From Pseudomonadota bacterium (GTDB lineage Bacteria > Pseudomonadota > Gammaproteobacteria > Steroidobacterales > Steroidobacteraceae): 35,097 nt of DNA. The stretch lies in assembly GCA_021792555.1 (NCBI GenBank), contig JAJYUL010000038.1, positions 1 through 35,097 of the forward strand. The letters are read 5' to 3'. Positions 18,364 to 32,237 of the stretch are shown in pieces. The position numbers were made by a program, and so were the translations under genes. Below the pieces are notes generated by a model that worked only from the letters and a program-made list of their open reading frames with translations, had not been told where the DNA came from and ran no database searches. Every line of letters starts with the position of its first letter. Position 1 is the stretch's first letter.

Positions 18364-19569
18364 TCAGTATATCAGAAAGGGCCGCCGTGCGTCCTGCCAC
18401 GCGGCCTCATCGGCCGCGGCGAGCGCCTCGAGATCCTGGCTTGTGGCGGCCGGATCGTCCACCCAGCGCCGCAGCGTCTCGCCGCCGTTGATCACGTCGA
18501 TGGCCAGCCGCTCGCGCTCGTACTCATAGGGAAACTCGCGCCACAGCGGATAGTCCGGCCGCAGCTCTCGCAGCGCCTTGAAGGCGAGCGCCATCAGCCG
18601 CCACGGCTGGAACGCCCGATGCTCGTAGTGCGAGGGGTCCTCCACGTGCAGCTGCACCCCGGCGCAGAGCGCCCCGGCGTGCTTGTGGAAGGTGGGCTCG
18701 AACCAGCAGGCCCGCAGGCGGCAGCCGCCCATCCAGGCCGGCGCCAGCGCGTGCATCGCCTCGAGCAGGGCCGGGACGTCCAGATCCGGCGCACCGAACA
18801 GCTCAAGCGGCCGGGTCGTGCCGCGCCCCTCGGAGAGCGTCGTGCCCTCGAGCATCACCGTGCCGGGATAGCAGCGCGCCATGAACAGATTCGGGGCGTT
18901 GGGGCTCGGGTTGACCCAGGTGCGCTGCCCGAGCGGCCAGCCGTAGCCGGGCGCGGCATGCGGGTTCCAGCCCTCCAGCGTCACGACCTGACAGTCGAGG
19001 TCGAGCTTCAAGGTGTGCACGAACCAGCGCGCAAGCTCCCCGAGCGTCATGCCGTGGCGCATCGGCATCGGCGCGGCGCCGACGAAACTCTCCGCTCCCG
19101 GGCGCAGCGAGAGCCCCTCGACCGGCCGGCCGATGGGATTCGGCCGGTCGAGCACCCAGAGGCTCTTGCGGCGCCGAGCGCACGCCTCGAGCACGTAGCG
19201 CAGGGTGGTCACGAACGTGTAGACGCGGCAGCCGAGGTCCTGCAGATCCACCAGCAGCACATCGAACGTATCGAGCATCGCCTCGGTCGGCCGGCGCACT
19301 TCCCCGTAGAGGCTGAACACCGGGATGCCGTGCACCGGGTCGATGAAATCCGCAGACTCGACCATGTTGTCCTGCTTGTCGCCGCGCAGCCCGTGCTGCG
19401 GGCCGAACGCGGCCGTCAGGCGCAGCTCCCCGAGCGCCCCGAGCGCATCCAGGCTGTGCGTCAGGCCGCGCGTCACCGAGGCCGGATGCGCGAGCAGCGC
19501 CACGCGGCGGCCCGCCAGGGGTTTGCGCAGTGCCGGTTCGCCCAGCAGGCGGTCGATGCCGAATTTCAT
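18364..19569 (-). CDS. DUF1343 / NamZ-type exo-beta-N-acetylmuramidase, no signal peptide
   Basis: The 401-residue protein belongs to the DUF1343 (NamZ/YbbC) family, whose characterised members release N-acetylmuramic acid from peptidoglycan fragments. Recognisable blocks are '[17 protein letters not shown]' (25-41), '[19 protein letters not shown]' (54-72), '[21 protein letters not shown]' and '[19 protein letters not shown]'. Further ones are '[15 protein letters not shown]', '[16 protein letters not shown]', '[23 protein letters not shown]' and the C-terminal 'PFEYE'-like '[19 protein letters not shown]'. The start ATG 19569 begins at the first conserved block. There is no signal peptide here or in the upstream extension, so it is predicted cytoplasmic, unlike exported relatives. 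A DOMON-like gene lies 34 nt upstream. Confidence 0.9.
18366..18374 (-). promoter_or_regulatory. Extended -10 promoter candidate for ygiQ
   Basis: The minus strand reads TGATATACT, an extended -10 (TGn plus TATACT, 5 of 6 to consensus), inside an AT-rich patch overlapping the namZ stop codon. No good -35 is present, as expected for an extended -10. It would give a ygiQ leader of about 145 nt. Confidence 0.45.
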
Positions 19570-19603
19570 GGGGCTCGCATTGGATGACGGGCGGCGGGTG
19601 ATC

Positions 19604-20203
19604 TCAGGTCCACGCCAGCGTGAGTGCAAACGCGTCCGGATGATGGAAATCCGGCCGCCCCGGCGCGTGCCGGAGCGCCCAGTATGACAGGCTGCCCGTC
19701 TCATCCTCCACTACGGCGCTCAGGGCCAGAGCGAGCCCCCGCGGCGGATCGGCGTAGGGCGAAGGCAGATGCACGAGCGCCTCGAGCACCAGCGCATCGG
19801 CCGCGCCGCCGGAGCGCTCGCGCTGCCCTATGGTCAGATGCGGGGGCGCTGGCAGTTCCGCGGGCGCCATGTCCTGCCGGTAGCCGCCGAGGCGATAGGC
19901 CTGCCATGCGCCCGAGGGCGAGAAGTTCAGCTCGAGGTAGCCGGGCACCTCGTCACGCCGCACGAATGCCTCGAAACACGTGTGCCGCCACAACTCGTCG
20001 GCGCGCCGCGCGAAGCCGGGCGGCGGAATGCGGACCGCGCGCAGCTCGCCCGTCAGCGTGAACTCGACACCGATCACGCCCGGGCGCAGCGCCTGCGCCC
20101 GGGCCTCGAGCGAGTGCACCGCTGCGCAGGCGGAATGCGCATGGCGCACGAGGCGGACGCGTGATCCATCGCCAGGACGAGTCTCATGCGGATCCGCTCT
20201 CAT
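19604..20203 (-). CDS. DOMON-like domain-containing protein
   Basis: The 199-residue protein resembles the bacterial DOMON-like (murB-like DOMON) family: a single beta-sandwich domain. It has 'VIGVEFTLTGELRAVRIPP', 'ADELWRHTCFEAFVRRDEVPGYLELNFSPSGAWQAYRLGGYR' (split in the sequence by no gap), 'ALVLEALVHLP' and 'LALALSAVVEDETGSLSYWALRH'. The 'LW..TCFE.F.......Y.E.NFSPSG.WaaY.F..YR' pattern is the family signature. DOMON folds bind heme or sugars; nothing here identifies the ligand. No signal peptide is visible, so it is cytoplasmic. The start ATG 20203 is uncertain by up to about 15 codons. It is followed after 34 nt by the NamZ gene, an association that suggests a link to sugar or muropeptide handling (inference). 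Confidence 0.82.
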   Translation of the reverse strand: MRADPHETRPGDGSRVRLVRHAHSACAAVHSLEARAQALRPGVIGVEFTLTGELRAVRIPPPGFARRADELWRHTCFEAFVRRDEVPGYLELNFSPSGAWQAYRLGGYRQDMAPAELPAPPHLTIGQRERSGGAADALVLEALVHLPSPYADPPRGLALALSAVVEDETGSLSYWALRHAPGRPDFHHPDAFALTLAWT

Positions 20204-22661: not shown

Positions 22662-25600
22662 ATGACCGACGCCCACCGAGACGTCATCCGCGTACGCGGC
22701 GCGCGTCAGAACAACCTGAAGAACCTCGATCTCGAGATCCCGCTCAACGAGCTGGTCGTGGTGACGGGTGTGTCGGGATCGGGCAAGTCTTCGCTGGTGT
22801 TCGATACGCTCTACGCCGAGGGCCAGCGCCGTTACGTTGAGACGTTCTCTCCCTACGCGCGCCAGTTCCTCGACCGCATGGACAAGCCGCAGGTGGACGC
22901 GATCAGCGGCATCCCTCCGGCCATCGCCATCGATCAGACCAACCCGGTGCGCACATCGCGCTCCACGGTCGGAACGATGACGGAGCTCAACGACCATCTG
23001 AAGCTGTTGTTCGCCCGCACGGGGAGCCTGTACTGCCAGCGCTGCGGACAGCCGGTGCGGCGCGACACCCCCGAGAGCATTCACCGGGACCTGCTCGCGC
23101 GCGCCGCAGCGGCCGGCGATCCGCGGCTGCTCGTGACGTTTCCGGTCGAGGTGCCGGCGAATTTCACGCCCGAGGAAGTGCGCGCGCTGCTCGAGAAGCA
23201 GGGCTACACGCGCTTCATCGAGCCGCCGCCGCAGGCACCCTCCCGGGCGCGCACCGGCAAGGGCCGCCGCAAGGCGCCCGCCGCGCCCGCGATCACGTTC
23301 GAGGTGGTGCAGGACCGCCTGCGCGCCGGGAACGCCGAGCGCAGCCGCATCCTGGAGTCCCTCGAGACCGCGCTGCGGGTCGGCCGCGGCAAGGTCAACA
23401 TCCGCGTCGTGGATGCCGCCGATCCGCCCAACACGCTGTCGATCTGGCGCTACTCGAGCGGGCTGCACTGCGCCGAGTGCGACCTGTCCTACCTCGAGCC
23501 GACCCCCAGCCTGTTCTCGTTCAACTCCCCGGTGGGCGCCTGCGAGACCTGCCGGGGCTTCGGGCGCGTGATCGGCATCGACTACGGCCTGGTCGTGCCG
23601 GATGACAGCAAGAGCCTGCGCGGCGGGGCGATCAAGCCCTGGCAGACGCAGTCCTACGCCGAGTGCCAGCAGGACCTCGAGAAATTCGCGCGCAAGCGCG
23701 GCGTGCCGCTCGATGCGGCCTGGCGCGATCTGTCCGCTGAGCACAGACGTTGGGTGATCGAGGGCGAAGGCGACTGGAGCAAAGGCGTGTGGTACGGGGC
23801 GAAGCGATTCTTCGCCTGGCTCGAGAGCCGCTCGTACAAGATGCACGTGCGCGTGCTGCTGTCGCGCTACCGTGCCTATACCCCGTGCGAGACCTGCGGA
23901 GGAGCGCGGCTGAAGACCCAGGGGCTGCTGTGGCGCGTCGGCGGGCGCGACGCCGCCGATGCGGCGCTCGGCGACACGCCGCGCTTCCAGCCGCGCGCGG
24001 CCGAGTGGAGCGAGGCGACGCGCCAGCGCCTCCCGGGGCTGTCCCTGCACGACATCATGCTGCTGCCGGTCACGCGGGCGCGCGCGTTCTTCGAGCAGCT
24101 GCAGCTGCCGAAGCCGCTCGACGAGGCCACCGATCTGCTGCTCGGACAGATCCGTGCCCGCTTCGGCTACCTCGCCGACGTCGGCCTCGGCTACCTCACG
24201 CTCGACCGCCAGTCGCGCACCCTCTCCGGCGGCGAGGTTCAGCGCATCAATCTCACCACCGCCCTCGGCACCTCACTGGTCAACACGCTGTTCGTGCTGG
24301 ATGAGCCCTCGATCGGGCTGCACCCGCGCGACATGCAGCGGGTCATCGGGGTGATGAAGCGGCTGCGCGATGCGGGCAACTCGCTGCTGGTCGTGGAGCA
24401 CGACCCGCAGATCATGCTCGAGGCAGACCGCATCCTCGACATCGGCCCCGGCGCCGGCGAGCGCGGCGGGCAGATCGTCTTCTTCGGCACGCCGCGTGAG
24501 ATCCGCCGCAGCGCTCACTCGATCACCGGGGAGTACCTGAGCGGGCGCAGGCACGTGAGCGCCGAGCGGGCGGTCCGGCCGGCTGCGGCCGGCGCCGCGC
24601 CGCCCGGCGAAGTGGTGGCCGAGGCGCGCTCGAACCGCTGGATCGAGCTGCGCGCAGTCAGCCAGCACAACCTCAAGTCGATCGACGTGCGCATCCCGCT
24701 GAAGCGCCTGGTGTGCGTCACCGGCGTGTCCGGCTCGGGCAAGTCGACGCTGATCGAGGATGTGCTCTACCCGGCGCTGCTCAAATATCACGGCAAGCCG
24801 ACCGAGGCGCCCGGCGCGTTCGCGGCGCTCGCCGGCGCCGAGCTCATCGACGATGTAGTGATGGTCGACCAGAGCCCGATCGGCCGCACGACGCGCTCGA
24901 ATCCCGCCAGCTACGTCGGCGCGTTCGATGCGATCCGGGCCCTGTTCGCCGCGGAGCCGGCCGCGCTCGAGCGCAAGTACACCGCCGGCACCTTCAGCTT
25001 CAACTCCGGCAACGGCCGCTGCCCGACCTGCAGCGGCAACGGCTTCGAGCACGTCGAGATGCAGTTCCTCTCCGATGTGTATCTGCGCTGCCCGGACTGC
25101 AACGGCCGCCGCTACCGCGACGAGGTCCTCGACATCCGCCGCGAGGGCAGCGACGGCCGGCGCGCCAGCATCGCCGATGTGCTCGAGATGACGGTCACCG
25201 AAGCGCTGGCGTTCTTCCGCGACTCGCGCGAAGTGTGCGCCCGGCTTGCGCCGCTCGCCGACGTGGGGCTCGAGTACGTCACCCTAGGCCAGCCGGTGCC
25301 GACGCTCTCCGGCGGCGAGGCACAGCGGCTGAAGCTCGCCGGACACCTGGCGCAGGCCGGCTCGGTGCTCTCGAGCATCACGCACAAGGGCAAGCTCTTT
25401 CTGTTCGACGAGCCGACCACGGGGCTGCACTTCCAGGACGTCACGCGCCTGCTGATGGCGTTCCGCAAGCTGCTCGCCGCGGGCCACTCGCTGCTCGTCA
25501 TCGAGCACAACCTCGATGTGATCCGCGCCTGCGACTGGATCATCGATCTCGGCCCGGAGGGGGGCGAGGACGGCGGGCACATCGTGTGCGTCGGAACCCC

Positions 25601-28400
25601 GGCCGAGGTGCGCCGGCACAGCGGTTCGCACACCGCGCGCGCGCTGTTGGAATACGAGCAGGCGCTCGCCGGCGAGCCGCCCGCCTCAGCCGCGGCGCCG
25701 CCGGCGGTCGCCGAATCGGCGCCGCGCTACGGCCGGATCGATGCGGCCGCACGGCACGACATCGTCATCCACAATGCGCGCGAGCACAATCTCAAGAGCA
25801 TCGACGCGCGCATTCCGCGCGACCGCTTCACGGTGATCACCGGTGTGTCGGGATCCGGCAAGTCGACGCTGGCGTTCGACATCCTGTTCAACGAAGGCCA
25901 GCGCCGCTATCTGGAATCCCTGAACGCGTACGCCCGCCAGTTCGTGCAGCCGGCCGCGCGCCCCGACGTGGATGCGATCTTCGGCATTCCGCCAACGGTG
26001 GCCATCGAGCAGCGCACCAGCCGCGGCGGACGCAAGAGCACCGTGGCGACGCTCACTGAGATCTACCACTTCCTGCGCCTGCTCTACGTGAAGCTCGGCA
26101 CCCAGTATTGCCCGGACTGCGCGGTGGCCATCGAGCCGCAGAGCGGCGCGTCGATCGCGGCGCGTCTGCTGCGCGAGTACCGCGGCAAGCGCATCGCGCT
26201 GCTCGCTCCGCTCGTCGTGGCGCGCAAGGGCTACTACACGGATCTGGCCAAATGGGCGCACAAGAAGGGGTTCAAGACGCTGCGCGTCGACGGCAGCGCG
26301 CTGCCGACGGCGAAGTGGCCGCGCCTCTCGCGCTTCAAGGAGCACACCATCGAGCTGCCGGTCGCCGAGATCGAAGTCGGCGCCCACACCGACACCGAGC
26401 TGCACCAGGGACTCGCGCGCGCGCTCGATTTCGGCAAGGGGCTGGTGCACGTGCTCGCGCCGAATGCCGCCCGCGTGACGGTGTTCTCCACCAAGCGCGC
26501 CTGTCCGTCGTGCGGACGCAGCTTCGCCGAGCCCGATCCACGTCTGTTCTCGTTCAATTCCAAGCATGGCTGGTGCGAGAGCTGCTACGGCACCGGGGTG
26601 GCAATGGCGGGCTTCGATGCCGAGCAGACCGGCGAGGAGCACTGGTGGAACGACTGGCTCGAGGGCGAGCCGCAGCCGTGCCCGGCCTGCCAGGGGCGGC
26701 GGCTCAACCCGGTCGCGCTCGCCGTGCGCTTTCGCGAGCGCTCCATCGCCGACCTGACGCTCGAGCCGGTGCTGCGGGCCGCGGAGTTCTTCCGGCGGCT
26801 CAAACTTTCCGCGCGCGAGCGGCAGATCGCCCGCGATCTGCTCGCGGAGATCCGCTCACGGCTGGCGTTTCTCGAGCGCGTGGGGCTCGGCTACCTGCAG
26901 CTCGACCGCTCCGCCCCGACCCTCTCCGGCGGCGAGGCGCAGCGTATCCGCCTCGCCGCGCAGCTCGGCTCGAATCTGCAGGGCGTGTGCTACGTGCTCG
27001 ACGAGCCGACCATCGGGCTGCATCCGCGCGACAACGAGATTCTGCTCGATTCGCTCGCGGAGCTCGCGAGCCACCGCAACACCCTGGTCGTGGTGGAGCA
27101 CGATGAGGACACCATCCGGCGCGCCGATCACGTGCTCGATCTCGGCCCGGGTGCCGGCGTGCTCGGCGGTGAAATCGTCGGCGCCGGAACGGTGAAGGAG
27201 TTGATGCGCAACCCGCGCTCGGTCACCGGGCGTTTCCTGCGCCACCCGCTGCAACATCCGTCCGTGCCGCGCCGCGCAACGGACGCGAAGACCGCTCATC
27301 TGACGCTCGAGAAAATCGCCCTGCACAACGTGCAGGGCGACGTGAAGATTCCGCTCGGCCGCCTGGTGGTCGTCACGGGCGTGTCGGGCTCAGGCAAATC
27401 GACCGTCGCCCGCGACGTGCTGTACACCAATCTGCGCCGCCTGCTCGGGAACGCCGAAAAGCCCTCGGGCCAGCGCGCGGCCAAAAGAACCGCGCGGCGC
27501 ACCCGCAAGGCCTCGGGCGCGGAACTCGCCGGCTGCCGCGCCGTTCGCGGGCTGGAACACCTCGATCGCGTCCTGGAAGTCGACCAGACCCCGATCGGCA
27601 AGACACCGCGCTCGTGCCCCGCGACCTACATCGGGTTCTGGGACGACATCCGGCGGATCTACGCGGCGACCAGCGAGGCGCGTCTGCGCGGCTACACCGC
27701 CAGCCGCTTCTCCTTCAACACCGCGGGCGGGCGCTGCGACGCGTGCGAGGGCCAGGGCGTCAAGACCATCGAGATGAGCTTCCTGCCCGACGTGAAGGTG
27801 GTGTGCGATGTGTGCGGCGGCCGGCGCTTCAATTCCGAGACGCTCGCGGTGCTCTGGCGGGACAAGAGCATCGGCGATGTGCTGACGATGAATGTCGATA
27901 CGGCGGTGTCGTTCTTCGCCGCGCACGCGCGCATCCACCACGCGTTGAAGCTGCTTCAGGACGTGGGACTCGGCTACCTGACGCTCGGGCAGCAGAGCCC
28001 CACCCTCTCCGGCGGCGAGGCGCAGCGCATCAAGCTGGTCACGGAGCTGGCCAAAGTGCGCGATCCGGGACCGCGCCCGCCCGGGGCGCCGCGGGCGGGC
28101 AAGCACACGCTGTACGTGCTCGATGAGCCGACCGTGGGACTGCACATGGCCGACGTGGAGAAGCTGATCCATGTGCTGCACCGGCTGGTTGACGCCGGCA
28201 ACACCGCAGTGGTCGTGGAGCACAACCTGGACGTCATGGCCGAGGCGGACTGGATCCTCGACCTGGGACCGGAGGCCGGCGAGCGCGGCGGGCGCATCGT
28301 GGCGCAGGGCACCCCCGCCGCAGTCGTGCGCCGCGCCAGACACTCGCATACCGGCCGCGTGCTGGCACAGTTCCTCGCGACGCGGCACGCCGGCGATTGA
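22662..28400 (+). CDS. uvrA: Double-length UvrA (two tandem UvrA modules, four ABC ATPase sites)
   Basis: At 1912 residues this is twice the normal UvrA (~940). Four Walker A motifs 'GVSGSGKS' begin at residues 36, 688, 1061 and 1573; four ABC signatures 'LSGGE' at 521, 882, 1421 and 1782. Each module has both UvrA zinc modules: C270/C273/C294/C297 and C787/C790/C810/C813, then C1281/C1284/C1305/C1308 and C1692/C1695/C1715/C1718. An Ala/Pro-rich linker (about 1008-1035) joins the halves. UvrA finds DNA lesions in nucleotide excision repair as a dimer; a tandem protein could be a covalent dimer. Module 2 keeps a UvrB-binding-like segment ('[19 protein letters not shown]'), while the equivalent part of module 1 is divergent and has a basic insert (about 186-209). 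Similar giant UvrA paralogs are known from some proteobacteria. A separate canonical UvrA may exist elsewhere. ATG 22662 follows AAGGA closely. Confidence 0.93.
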
Positions 28401-28414
28401 GGTACAGTGCCCGC

Positions 28415-28717
28415 ATGGGACACGAGCTGGTCTGCTGGAAGTGCGGCGCGTCGCTGGCGGCGCTGACGCTGCCGCTGCGCCGGCTCGAGGAATGCCCGCG
28501 CTGCCGCGCGCAACTGCACGTCTGCCGGATGTGCCTCGAGTACGACACGACGGTGGCCACACGGTGCCGTGAGCCAACGGCCGAGGAAGTGCGCAACAAG
28601 GAGGGAGCCAACTTCTGCGATTTCTTCAAGCCGCGCCCGGGCGCCTACACGGCGCCGAACACGGCCGAAGCCGAGCGGGCCCGCGCCGAGCTGGACAAGC
28701 TGTTCGGCAAGGGCTGA
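28415..28717 (+). CDS. Small cysteine-rich zinc-ribbon protein of unknown function
   Basis: The 100-residue protein has eight cysteines: CxxC pairs at C7/C10, C27/C30 and C37/C40, then C51 and C68. This suits one zinc ribbon (C7/C10 with C27/C30) plus a second metal site. The conserved-looking tail 'CREPTAEEVRNKEGANFCDFFKPRPGAY' is a pattern I recall from short uncharacterised proteobacterial proteins. The C-terminus is charged and helical ('AEAERARAELDKLFGKG'), with no membrane segment. ATG 28415 lies 14 nt after uvrA. No Shine-Dalgarno is evident, but TACAGT (28402-28407), a -10-like hexamer, sits just upstream, so a nearly leaderless transcript is conceivable besides read-through from uvrA. 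Confidence 0.8.
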   Translation: MGHELVCWKCGASLAALTLPLRRLEECPRCRAQLHVCRMCLEYDTTVATRCREPTAEEVRNKEGANFCDFFKPRPGAYTAPNTAEAERARAELDKLFGKG

Positions 28718-28718
28718 C

Positions 28719-28737
28719 GCGGCGAGGAGCACGCCGC
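28719..28737. terminator. Stem-loop between convergent zinc-ribbon and twin-SPOR genes
   Basis: GCGGCG (28719-28724), a 7-nt loop AGGAGCA and CGCCGC (28732-28737) form a perfect 6-bp hairpin that fills the 26-nt gap between two convergent genes. This position is typical of a shared bidirectional terminator, though no T-run is present. Confidence 0.45.
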
Positions 28738-28743
28738 CGGCGG

Positions 28744-30192
28744 TCAGTTCTTCCGGACTCGCTCGCCCAACCGCTCGAGCAGCCGCGTGAACGGCGTGCT
28801 CCTCTCCGTCTTGTCCATCTTGCGCGACTGGCCGGCTCCGCGCGCATCGTCCGCGCTGGCGCGCCCGTCGTCGATGGTCAGCTCGTGCGCGCCGAGAATC
28901 TCCAGCGTCTCCTCAAGCGTCTGCGGCGCCCGGCGCTCGCGCGCATGCACCTTGCTGCCGTTCGTGGCCCGTTTGTTGAACGGGATCGGCCGCAGCTCAT
29001 GCACCGGCGCCTTGGGCGGGGAGGCCTCGGGCGCCGCGGCCGCCTCGTGGGGCGGCGTGTCGGCATCGAACAGCTTGAACTCGTGGTCGACCGATGCGGG
29101 CGCCTTGCGCGCCGGACGCAGCGGGGTGGTCCCCGGCTCGCCGCTCACCCGCTGACGCTCATCGGCGGTCACCGGCACGACGGCGGCGGAGGAGAACTCC
29201 GAGCGCACGTAGCCGGCCACCTGCTTCGCGGAGATCGGATCGTTGAAGAAGCCGAGCCGCAGCCCGTACCACTTGCGCCCTTCACGGCTGCCCTCCACGC
29301 AATAGAGCGTATAGGCGCTGAAGATCGCCAGCGGCGGCAGCTTGTCGAAGCTGATGGGCTGCACCGACCACTTCAGCTGCACGGCGAAGGCGGCCGGCTT
29401 GACGGCCTCGGGCGTGCGACCCTCCAGGCACTGCAGCGCCTGGGCGTCGCTGAGCGGCGGCTCCGGCATCGGCATGGCGCGCGTCTCGCCGGTCGCAGCC
29501 TGCGGCTCATCGAGCGCCGCGAGCACTTCCTTGATGTTGGAGTTCCCGAACACGCCCGGCTTGCGGGCGGCCGCGGGGGGTGTGGTCCGGGCGGCGGCCT
29601 TGGCTGGCTTCGACGGCGCGGGACGCACCGCCGCAGGCTTCGGCGGCGCCGCGCTCGGCGCCTGCGCGGCGGCCGGCGGGTGCACCGTGGGCACGGGCTT
29701 GGCAGATTCGGCAGACGGCGGGGCGGCCTCCTGCACCGCGGCCGTGAGGACGGGCGGAGAAGAGGCCGGCGGCGCGGGCGGCGCGGCCTGGGGGGCGGGC
29801 GGCTCGACCTGGGGGGCCAGCGAGTGCGGGCCGGCCGCATGGGCGGCCTGCGCTTCGGCGGCAGCGACGGCGCGCGCACGCAGCTTCTTGCCGGGCGCCT
29901 CGCCGGCCCAGGCGCCCGGATAGATCTCGCGCACCAGAGCCAGCCAGCTTTCCGCCTCGGCCTGGGTCTCGAAGAACCCCATGTGCAGCCGGAAGCGCTC
30001 GCGCCCTTCCTCGAAGCGGCGGCTGACGAAGAAGTTGAAGCGCTTCAGCTCCGGCATGTCGGCGCGCGGCAGCGCCATGGGCGTGCTCGAGGAGCACAGA
30101 TTGATCACGAACGGGCCCGCTTCGGCGGCGGGCTCCACCGATGATGGCGCGCCGGTCTCGGGGAGCGGCGCCAGATTTTCCGCTGGTGTCAT
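28744..30192 (-). CDS. Twin SPOR-like-domain protein, soluble, under a c-di-GMP riboswitch
   Basis: The 482-residue protein has two related alpha/beta domains of SPOR type. Domain 1 is about 27-97 ('FVINLCSSSTPMAL', 'RFRLHMGFFETQAEAESWLALVRE'). Domain 2 is about 268-342 ('FAVQLKWSVQPISF', 'WYGLRLGFFNDPISAKQVAGYVR'). Both keep the 'R-L-G-F-F' strand followed by a helix. A Pro/Ala-rich linker (about 120-212) separates them, and a charged tail with 'TLEETLEILGAHELTIDDG' (425-443) follows. There is no signal peptide or membrane helix, so it is probably cytoplasmic, unlike classical SPOR proteins that bind denuded peptidoglycan. ATG 30192 is preceded by AAGAGA. The leader contains a GEMM-I riboswitch and its own promoter, so expression should respond to cyclic di-GMP. 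The exact function is unknown. Confidence 0.85.
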   Translation of the reverse strand: MTPAENLAPLPETGAPSSVEPAAEAGPFVINLCSSSTPMALPRADMPELKRFNFFVSRRFEEGRERFRLHMGFFETQAEAESWLALVREIYPGAWAGEAPGKKLRARAVAAAEAQAAHAAGPHSLAPQVEPPAPQAAPPAPPASSPPVLTAAVQEAAPPSAESAKPVPTVHPPAAAQAPSAAPPKPAAVRPAPSKPAKAAARTTPPAAARKPGVFGNSNIKEVLAALDEPQAATGETRAMPMPEPPLSDAQALQCLEGRTPEAVKPAAFAVQLKWSVQPISFDKLPPLAIFSAYTLYCVEGSREGRKWYGLRLGFFNDPISAKQVAGYVRSEFSSAAVVPVTADERQRVSGEPGTTPLRPARKAPASVDHEFKLFDADTPPHEAAAAPEASPPKAPVHELRPIPFNKRATNGSKVHARERRAPQTLEETLEILGAHELTIDDGRASADDARGAGQSRKMDKTERSTPFTRLLERLGERVRKN

Positions 30193-30283
30193 ATCTCTTG
30201 GACGCTCGGTAGAGGTGCCCCGGTCGGCCGGCGACGCGCCCAGGAGATGCGGAGGATGCAAGCGATGCGCCCGAAGCGCGCTC

Positions 30284-30361
30284 GTGGCAGCCCCGCCGTC
30301 ATGGGATCGACCCGAAGACCGGTGGCTTTGCGTCCCCGTCTTTCGACGGGTTTGCCCTTGT
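30284..30361 (-). promoter_or_regulatory. GEMM-I (c-di-GMP-I) riboswitch aptamer
   Basis: The minus strand matches the GEMM-I aptamer block by block. AGGGCAAACC starts at 30358. A GNRA-capped stem CCCGTC-GAAA-GACGGG follows (30350-30335), then GGGACGCAAAGCC, CCGGTC with its partner GACGG, and the closing GGGGCTGCC ending at 30286. The GGCAAACC and ACGCAAAGCC segments and the GAAA tetraloop are the near-invariant parts of the aptamer, as in the Vibrio cholerae Vc2 RNA. The second hairpin is shorter than in Vc2. This class binds cyclic di-GMP. It lies in the 5' leader of the twin-SPOR gene, about 90 nt before the start codon. Outer ends are approximate by several nt. Confidence 0.9.
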
Positions 30362-30372
30362 CACTGACGCAA

Positions 30373-30401
30373 AGTGTCAGCGTGCTGCCCCGGAGTGTCA
30401 A
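30373..30401 (-). promoter_or_regulatory. Promoter of the riboswitch / twin-SPOR transcript
   Basis: On the minus strand a perfect -35 TTGACA (30401-30396) is followed after exactly 17 nt by GACACT (30378-30373), a half-matching -10. Transcription would start near 30366, a few nt before the aptamer. This places the riboswitch at the very 5' end of the mRNA and supports both calls. The -10 lies in an imperfect palindrome (TGACGC-AAA-GTGTCA, 30365-30379). Confidence 0.6.
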
Positions 30402-30469
30402 GCGCCGGATTGAGGCGCAACTCTCAGGTCGTATTTGCCGCAGCGCCGTGCGTACATAACGCGTCGACG

Positions 30470-30509
30470 GCGGCCGGCGCGCGCTTTCTTTATGTCGCGT
30501 ACCGGCCGC
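30470..30509. repeat. 8-bp inverted repeat with 24-nt loop downstream of hutU
   Basis: GCGGCCGG (30470-30477) and CCGGCCGC (30502-30509) are exact inverted repeats 31 nt beyond the hutU stop. The hairpin could end the hut transcript, but the loop is long and no U-tract is seen, so its role is uncertain. Confidence 0.4.
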
Positions 30510-30539
30510 GATATGTAATGAATCGCCCCCCCGACCCGC

Positions 30540-32237
30540 TCAGGCCGGGCCGCCCAGGATCCCCGGCAGGTCGAGCCCCTTCTCCCGGGCACAGGCGATG
30601 GCCTCCGGATAGCCGGCGTCCGCATGGCGCATCACTCCACTCGCCGGGTCGTTCCACAGCACCCGCGCGATGCGCCGCGCCGCCGCTTCGGTACCGTCGC
30701 ACACAATGACCAGGCCCGCGTGTTGGGAGAATCCCATGCCGACGCCGCCGCCGTGATGCAGCGAGACCCAGGTCGCGCCGGAGGCCGTGTTGAGCAGCGC
30801 GTTGAGCAGCGGCCAGTCCGACACCGCGTCGGAGCCGTCGCGCATCGATTCGGTCTCGCGGTTCGGCGAGGCGACCGAGCCGGAGTCCAGGTGATCGCGG
30901 CCGATCACCACCGGCGCCTTCAGTTCCCCCCGCGCGACCATCTCGTTGAACGCGAGACCGAGGCGGTGCCGGTCGCCGAGACCGACCCAACAGATGCGCG
31001 CCGGCAGACCCTGGAAGTGGATGCGCTCGCGCGCCATGTCGAGCCAGTGGTGCAGATGCTTGTCCTCGGGCAGCAGCTCCTTGACCTTCGCGTCCGTCCT
31101 GTAGATGTCCTGCGGGTCGCCCGAGAGCGCCGCCCAGCGGAACGGGCCCTTGCCGCGGCAGAACAGCGGCCGGATGTAGGCCGGCACGAATCCCGGGAAA
31201 TCGAACGCGTTCTTCACGCCCTCCTCGAGCGCCATCTGCCGGATGTTGTTGCCGTAGTCGACGGTCGGCACGCCGGCGGCGTGGAAGTCGAGCATCGCGC
31301 GCACGTGCACGGCCATCGAGGCCTTGGCCGCGCGCATGACGGCCTGCGGATCGCGCTCGCGCATCTCGAGCCAGTGCTCCACGCTCCAGCCGATGGGCAG
31401 GTAGCCGTTCAGCGGGTCATGGGCCGAGGTCTGGTCGGTGAGCAGATCGGGCCGCACGCCGCGCTTGAACAGCTCCGGCAGCACTTGCGCGGCATTGCCG
31501 AGCAGTCCGACCGACACGGCGCGCTTCTGCGCGCAGGCGCGCTGCACGATCGCGAGCGCCTCATCGAGGCTCTCGGCGGCATGGTCGAGATACCCCGAGC
31601 GCAGCCGCATCTCGATGCGCGAGCGCTGGCATTCCACCGCCAGACACGAAGCGCCGGCCATCACGGCAGCGAGCGGCTGCGCGCCGCCCATGCCGCCGAG
31701 CCCGGCGGTGAGCAGCCAGCGGCCTGCGAGGTCCCCGCCGTAGTGGCGCCGGCCCATCTCGACGAAGGTCTCGTAGGTGCCCTGCACGATGCCCTGGCTG
31801 CCGATGTAGATCCACGAGCCCGCGGTCATCTGGCCGAACATCATCAGCCCCTTGCGGTCGAGCTCGTTGAAATGCTCCCAGGTCGCCCAGCGTGGCACGA
31901 GATTGGAGTTGGCGATGAGCACGCGCGGGGCGTCCTCGTGGGTGGTGAACACGCCGACCGGCTTGCCCGACTGGATGAGCAGCGTCTGGTGCGCTTCCAA
32001 CCGCCGCAGCGTGGCAACGATGATGTCGTAGCTCTCCCAGTCGCGCGCGGCGCGCCCGATTCCCCCGTACACGACGAGCTCGGCCGGACGCTCGCCCACG
32101 GCCGGGTCGAGATTGTTCATCAGCATGCGCAACGGCGCCTCGGTGAGCCAGCTCTTGGCGGTGCGCTGCGTGCCAGTGGGCGCGCGGATGACGCGTGTGG
32201 TATCGAGGCGGGTGCGAGGCTTGCGATCTGCGCTCAT
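30540..32237 (-). CDS. hutU: Urocanate hydratase
   Basis: HutU converts urocanate to 4-imidazolone-5-propionate using tightly bound NAD+, the second step of histidine degradation. The 565 residues match the family (~557). Recognisable blocks are '[32 protein letters not shown]', '[24 protein letters not shown]' (each part of the conserved N-terminal half), '[14 protein letters not shown]' for NAD binding, '[16 protein letters not shown]', and the active-site Cys in 'ICWVGLGDR' (C416, equivalent to C410 in Pseudomonas putida). ATG (32237-32235) shares one base with the hutG stop (TGATG). It is the last gene of the hut operon. Confidence 0.97.

Follow-up and report, generated by a model that had tools for sequence, protein, structure and literature searches.

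Vc1 and Vc2 of Vibrio cholerae are GEMM-I riboswitches (RF01051, clan CL00126) with a full aptamer and a GAAA loop on P2, and the accessible text of two reports names G20, A47, and C92 as the c-di-GMP contacts of the class (PMC4744006, PMC3764141). The same architecture is present in a 35,097-nucleotide window (the whole stretch of DNA that was analyzed), where an aptamer with the P2 GAAA loop shares the equivalents of G20, A47, C92, C44, and G83. The next gene encodes a protein with two SPOR-type domains. The usual ligand of SPOR domains is glycan located outside the cytoplasm. A literature search, in which subscription journals were mostly uncovered, found no link of a SPOR domain to c-di-GMP or to a c-di-GMP riboswitch, including in the accessible part of PMC13029372, and a search of the same coverage for Steroidobacter and riboswitches returned nothing. 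The best explanation of the locus, to which we assign a probability of about 0.68, is that the gene has its own promoter, would be turned off by c-di-GMP, and encodes a leader-less twin-SPOR protein that would act at the inner membrane face.

Identity of the aptamer and its linkage to the twin-SPOR gene

30282-30365, minus strand: c-di-GMP-I (GEMM-I) riboswitch aptamer, P1-P2-P3, from RF03167 and RF01051 covariance matches
28744-30192, minus strand: twin-SPOR gene, 482 aa, the next gene after the aptamer and its putative target, from the translation and a start conserved in relatives

Scanned in full with cmscan at gathering thresholds, the window gave a single family, RF03167 (c-di-GMP-I-GGC), with one lower-ranked overlapping clan match omitted. 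The RF03167 match scores 74.0 bits (cut-off 59; E = 6.2e-16) over 30365-30282 of the minus strand and spans the full model (1-80). The RF01051 covariance model gives 76.8 bits (cut-off 35; E = 3.2e-15) at 30366-30283 of the same strand. These E-values exclude a chance match. They confirm the GEMM-I riboswitch of the preliminary description, which had proposed the RF01051 search and had quoted three near-invariant motifs on the minus strand, all of which are present. Its coordinates, 30284-30361, mark the right site but miss a few bases on either side. The RF01051 match is the only one in the genome (3.51 Mb, listed as 99.2% complete), and this search found no second GEMM-I copy there.

The ligand-contact equivalents in the window aptamer are G20 at 30356, A47 at 30329, and C92 at 30287. 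Fifty-two distinct SPOR-linked aptamers (56 copies minus identical ones) were aligned, and the equivalent columns are G, A, and C in 52/52, the window included. The column match leans in part on the Vc2 sequence. Columns were also tied to Vc2 numbering through the conserved neighbors C22, C44, G45, and A47-A49, which the accessible text of PMC4744006 and PMC3764141 names. RF03167 ranks first by E-value in the Rfam clan competition, which brings in the possibility that the aptamer is the GGC variant or binds another dinucleotide such as 3',3'-cGAMP; the available part of PMC7266159 describes GEMM-I variants that sense c-AMP-GMP. The GGC in the RF03167 name presumably refers to positions 20, 47, and 92. 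The RF03167 consensus GCGAAG has a G, at presumed position 47, where the window has the first A of GCAAAGCC (GCAAAG), and for this reason the window aptamer is not filed as the GGC variant. The G20A change marks cGAMP-type GEMM-I RNAs, and position 20 is G throughout the alignment. The higher RF01051 bit score, the A in place of the consensus G, and the invariant contacts make another ligand very unlikely, and we treat the window RNA as a canonical c-di-GMP aptamer that would bind c-di-GMP. The ligand is very likely made by the host, in whose genome 23 matches to GGDEF and 4 to PilZ were found, 3 of the PilZ matches over the cut-off.

Conservation of the paired stems at homologous loci was a point on which the preliminary description had staked its reading, and standard pairs fill 95.4% of 1298 pair cells in the 52 aptamers. 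P1 is the weakest stem (79.5% paired). Changes on both sides of a pair occur in 33 cells, whereas shuffles give 5.5 and slid controls no more than 9. Most of this covariation is carried by the variable P3 tip. The tip reads UCUUCGGG...CCCAUGA in the subclade of the window and UCUAA(A/G)GG...CCUAUGA in most of the other clade. The excess is small when counted by pairs instead of cells: 5 pairs have both-side changes versus 2.7 in shuffles (15 of 500 shuffles reach 5), and one slid control has 6. Further pair types show no excess (15 versus 16.4 in shuffles).

Linkage of the aptamer to the gene was measured in relatives. Scanning named genome contigs for the protein yielded 36 loci, which all come from metagenome assemblies and are titled Proteobacteria, Pseudomonadota, Gammaproteobacteria, or Steroidobacteraceae. 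The aptamer core lies upstream of the twin-SPOR gene in 36/36, and this linkage is kept among proteins 42-95% identical to the one in the window. A larger set of 68 distinct N-terminal copies has the core within 420 nt in 56, although part of this set was found through the aptamer and the unbiased figure is 36/36. The core is present in 51/52 close copies (profile E < 1e-60), at 156-226 nt from the first domain, and in 5/16 others. The 12 copies without it are a clear family copy with a split frame (L145), short paralogues (L111, L146, and L107), six long diverged paralogues of ~700-790 aa (L098-L101, L114, and L115), and two matches that fall outside the family (L155 and L157); absence is also Rfam-negative for L145, L146, L107, and L111 and is judged by pattern only for the rest. 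Under stricter filters, exactly one GEMM-I match was found in 21 of the 23 genomes that carry the closest copies (E <= 1e-100), and 2-3 in the other two. The aptamer lies beside the twin-SPOR gene in 22 of the 23, and coordinates place it there in G038 as well.

A class-wide profile search matched 13/274 genomes, including that of the window, and 11 of the 12 other matches are in open frames of 692-897 aa. L155, L156, and L161 from this search were rejected as orthologues; they look like SPOR-TPR-type precursors. The search gave no match in G115, a member of the window's family, and no twin-SPOR match was found in three genomes of the window's genus that are 62-75% complete (G013, G022, and G025) or in plasmid records.

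An alternative is that the RNA is conserved without switching any longer, or that its function lies in mRNA stability or ribosome pausing. Single-residue changes in Vc1 had an inconsistent effect on its gene, according to the accessible text of PMC4744006. The invariant contacts, the paired stems, and a linkage that persists down to 42% protein identity argue against loss of switching here and make it quite unlikely. Because the RNA sensor has stayed with the gene in nearly all close relatives, the twin-SPOR gene is very probably under direct c-di-GMP control through a working canonical riboswitch with a conserved, unstudied target. That a c-di-GMP riboswitch serves this gene, as the preliminary description read the locus, is thus highly likely on the sequence comparisons.

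Promoter-like element and predicted expression platform of the leader

30373-30401, minus strand: promoter-like element, −35 TTGACA (30401-30396), 17-nt spacer, −10-like GACACT (30378-30373), from cross-species comparison
30263-30284, minus strand: hairpin P4, CGAGCGCGC-UUCG-GGCGCAUCG, directly after the aptamer and the start of the expression platform, drawable by eye in 22 aligned subclade leaders
30235-30259, minus strand: predicted switching segment GCAUCCUCCGCAUCUCCUGGGCGCG, from minimum-energy folds
30190-30206, minus strand: ribosome-binding region and start codon, AGCGUCCAAGAGAU AUG, accessibility 0.22 free and 0.10 with the aptamer enforced

The comparison of leaders in relatives that the preliminary description had suggested extends beyond the aptamer. 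TTGACN, a spacer of 17 or 16 nt, and NANACT precede the aptamer core by 14-19 nt in 35/35 distinct leaders (the window and the 36 protein-scan loci, identical ones merged); these leaders are related, and the count measures conservation and not 35 independent finds. The −10-like hexamer is GACACT in 25, GAAACT in 5, and another sequence in 5. A looser form of the pattern has a background of 0.002 per 25-nt window, and a generic sigma-70 scan reported no promoter. Transcription would start at ~30366, at the 5' edge of P1.

The hut (histidine utilization) genes lie upstream on the same strand, and the hutU frame ends ~175 nt before the aptamer. This proximity is what could be said for a riboswitch that serves the hut genes or acts antisense. 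Both the aptamer and its promoter lie downstream of the hut genes, and the promoter-like element, by placing the start at the aptamer edge, sets the SPOR gene apart from hutU as a unit of its own. In relatives, hutU is upstream in 17/36 loci, and the other 19 keep the aptamer and the SPOR gene with no hutU match in the upstream DNA examined, which covers only ~0.5-1 kb in two of them. A hut function for the riboswitch is hardly credible.

The twin-SPOR gene is better explained by a single-gene transcript of its own, and the folds suggest how its leader may switch. In the minimum-energy fold of the 186-nt window leader, the 5' and middle part of GCAUCCUCCGCAUCUCCUGGGCGCG, after P4, pairs with the 3' strand of P3 and the start region is open. 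When the aptamer is enforced, CAUCUCCUGGGCGCG (30249-30235) pairs instead with AGCGUCCAAGAGAUA over the ribosome site. The unconstrained minimum of a longer stretch already holds this Shine-Dalgarno (SD) duplex, which indicates that the balance between the two folds is close. The free-energy gap is 2.7 kcal/mol in the window and 6.1 on average. A gap of this size is within the range of tight ligand binding.

The SD-region duplex has an energy of −19.6 kcal/mol in the window (z = −3.8 versus shuffled linkers) and −19.3 in L063 (z = −4.5). Its mean z is −1.2 over 33 leaders, 14 of which are below −1. Taken by itself, the anti-aptamer duplex does not exceed shuffles in strength (mean z = +0.5), nor is the stability of the whole 186-nt window leader above shuffles (z = −0.35). 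By eye, the SD helix has one clean compensatory change in the subclade alignment (AUCUC/GAGAU to GUCUC/GAGAC), and its pairing is partly lost in L037.

Ribosome-site accessibility was calculated with and without the enforced aptamer for 33 leaders: that of the window and those of 32 protein-scan loci, the more diverged L078, L091, L092, and L097 being left out. On enforcement, mean accessibility falls from 0.370 to 0.251. It is lower in 19/33 leaders, higher in 5, and hardly changed in 9 (L070-L072 among them), counts that are not independent since the leaders are related to each other. The 396 shuffled-linker controls go from 0.361 to 0.368, with 16% lower and 20% higher. The excess of lowered accessibility over the shuffled linkers favors an OFF switch at translation, which we consider the probable mode of action on these models. 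Without c-di-GMP, the P3 3' strand would pair with the pyrimidine-rich segment after P4 and leave the ribosome site open; with c-di-GMP, the stabilized aptamer would free the segment to pair with the ribosome site and reduce translation. An intrinsic terminator was rejected as the expression platform, because no intrinsic-terminator-like site is listed on the minus strand in 28600-30700.

The same riboswitch could work with the opposite sign, c-di-GMP turning the gene ON by, for example, blocking Rho-dependent termination or stabilizing the mRNA. Precedent comes from Vc1, with which gbpA expression is raised by c-di-GMP (accessible text of PMC4744006), and the 5 leaders with higher accessibility fold in the ON direction. 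The 19 that fold in the OFF direction and the lack of a listed terminator-like site weigh against an ON switch, which we regard as rather unlikely.

The twin-SPOR protein and its setting

29905-30111, minus strand: SPOR-type domain 1, residues 28-96, Pfam PF05036 at 56-95
29170-29391, minus strand: SPOR-type domain 2, residues 268-341, matching the SPOR fold, with Q272 aligned to RlpA Q270
28750-28794, minus strand: C-terminal amphipathic helix PFTRLLERLGERVRK, from the hydrophobic moment and a helix at 467-481 in the structure model

The preliminary description took the target to be a soluble protein with two SPOR-like domains, and the analysis agrees. Domains 1 and 2 are homologous (hhalign P = 5e-6, probability 86, 27% identity over 64 columns), and domain 2 has a SPOR-like fold. 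Pfam SPOR (PF05036) reaches 21.2 bits against a cut-off of 21 in the window protein, at domain 1 and with no stretch passing alone, and is found at E <= 0.01 in 14/30 relatives. The gene is not among the 4 genome-wide Pfam SPOR matches, and NCBIfam has no match for the protein. Domain 1 modeled alone gave low confidence (pLDDT 65.5) and no significant fold match, with a DamX SPOR domain second at E = 1.0. Two results of PDB sequence searches were rejected: one search gave low-complexity matches only, and a fucose-binding lectin (E = 4e-4) arose from summed repeats with no single stretch passing.

Hydropathy shows no signal peptide or transmembrane helix (highest 19-residue mean, 0.87), and the absence of an export signal disfavors binding of denuded peptidoglycan in the periplasm; the protein has no visible way to reach glycan outside the cytoplasm. 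The C-terminal helix has a hydrophobic moment at or near the highest of the protein in 30/30 aligned rows (0.73-0.91) and a negative mean hydrophobicity (−0.29 to −0.68). It is a possible peripheral membrane anchor. The leader-less protein would be made at low c-di-GMP, would probably be cytoplasmic, and would be held at the membrane by this helix.

Other GEMM-I loci suggest where it might act. Thirty-four further loci without the SPOR gene were chosen from genome listings, not at random, and their families were assigned by Pfam. Ten lie before pilM, with the core 363-421 nt upstream (L118, L122, L124, L125, L128, L129, L131, L135, L151, and L153), all in other species of the window's genus. 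Ten lie before an M23 peptidase, 8 of them in that genus (L119, L123, L126, L127, L130, L132, L133, and L152), one in a different genus of the family (L013), and one in a different family of the order (L016). The remaining 14 have neither and include Ig-like, fibronectin-type, and DUF11 proteins (Pfam for L018, L134, and L120); L136 was uninformative. Three loci of order relatives (L003, L004, and L008) carry a tandem GEMM-I pair, with cores 228-244 nt apart, before lipoprotein-like genes. The window's genome contains pilM without a second aptamer and gave no flagellin match.

By guilt by association with the pilM and M23 loci, the best guess for the twin-SPOR protein is a role in envelope remodeling or type IV pilus function at the inner membrane face. 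We put forward only tentatively that it works on the cytoplasmic side in envelope or pilus biology. The GEMM-I loci before pilM and the M23 peptidase in congeners hint at an envelope and pilus regulon. A broader and more doubtful proposal is that GEMM-I riboswitches of Steroidobacteraceae set a small envelope regulon (the cytoplasmic, membrane-attached twin-SPOR protein, the M23 peptidase, and the PilM pilus operon). The twin-SPOR gene would be its core member and keep its riboswitch where the other members are missing from smaller genomes. The SPOR domains that it encodes would have been redirected to a cytoplasmic ligand other than peptidoglycan, one that links c-di-GMP to the pilus or division machinery. 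If the regulon exists, it would give this lineage a simple c-di-GMP route to type IV pili and cell-wall remodeling.

The neighborhood contains three other genes of note. A UvrA-like protein of 1912 aa (22662-28400, plus strand) is convergent to the SPOR gene and is found in 29/36 loci. Its UvrA domains are spread over one long chain, with UvrA_DNA-bind at 307-371, UvrA_inter at 1160-1266, and P-loop-type matches near 19, 675, 1035, and 1553. A small Cys-rich protein (28397-28717, plus strand; 30/36 loci) has no Pfam match, and its frame overlaps the end of the UvrA-like frame. A NamZ-type exo-beta-N-acetylmuramidase (18364-19704, minus strand), another cell-wall gene, is ~9 kb from the riboswitch gene.

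Comparison with known riboswitches and SPOR proteins

Domain 2 shares the SPOR fold with RlpA, DamX, DedD, FtsN, and CwlC, and its Q272 matches the glycan-binding Q270 of RlpA (accessible text of PMC6895207). The twin-SPOR protein differs from these proteins in that a disordered linker rich in Pro and Ala connects its two SPOR-type domains, hydropathy shows no transmembrane segment, and the C-terminal helix is amphipathic. A SPOR-type protein without a visible export signal is unusual and raises the question of what the fold binds besides naked glycan. The proposed OFF switch would be opposite in sign to Vc1, an ON element of the same class in Vibrio cholerae (accessible text of PMC4744006). 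Through a conserved RNA, the locus would connect a protein family that has no name directly with c-di-GMP: relative to the known riboswitches of RF01051 and clan CL00126, the riboswitch class is known, and the conserved target family is new.
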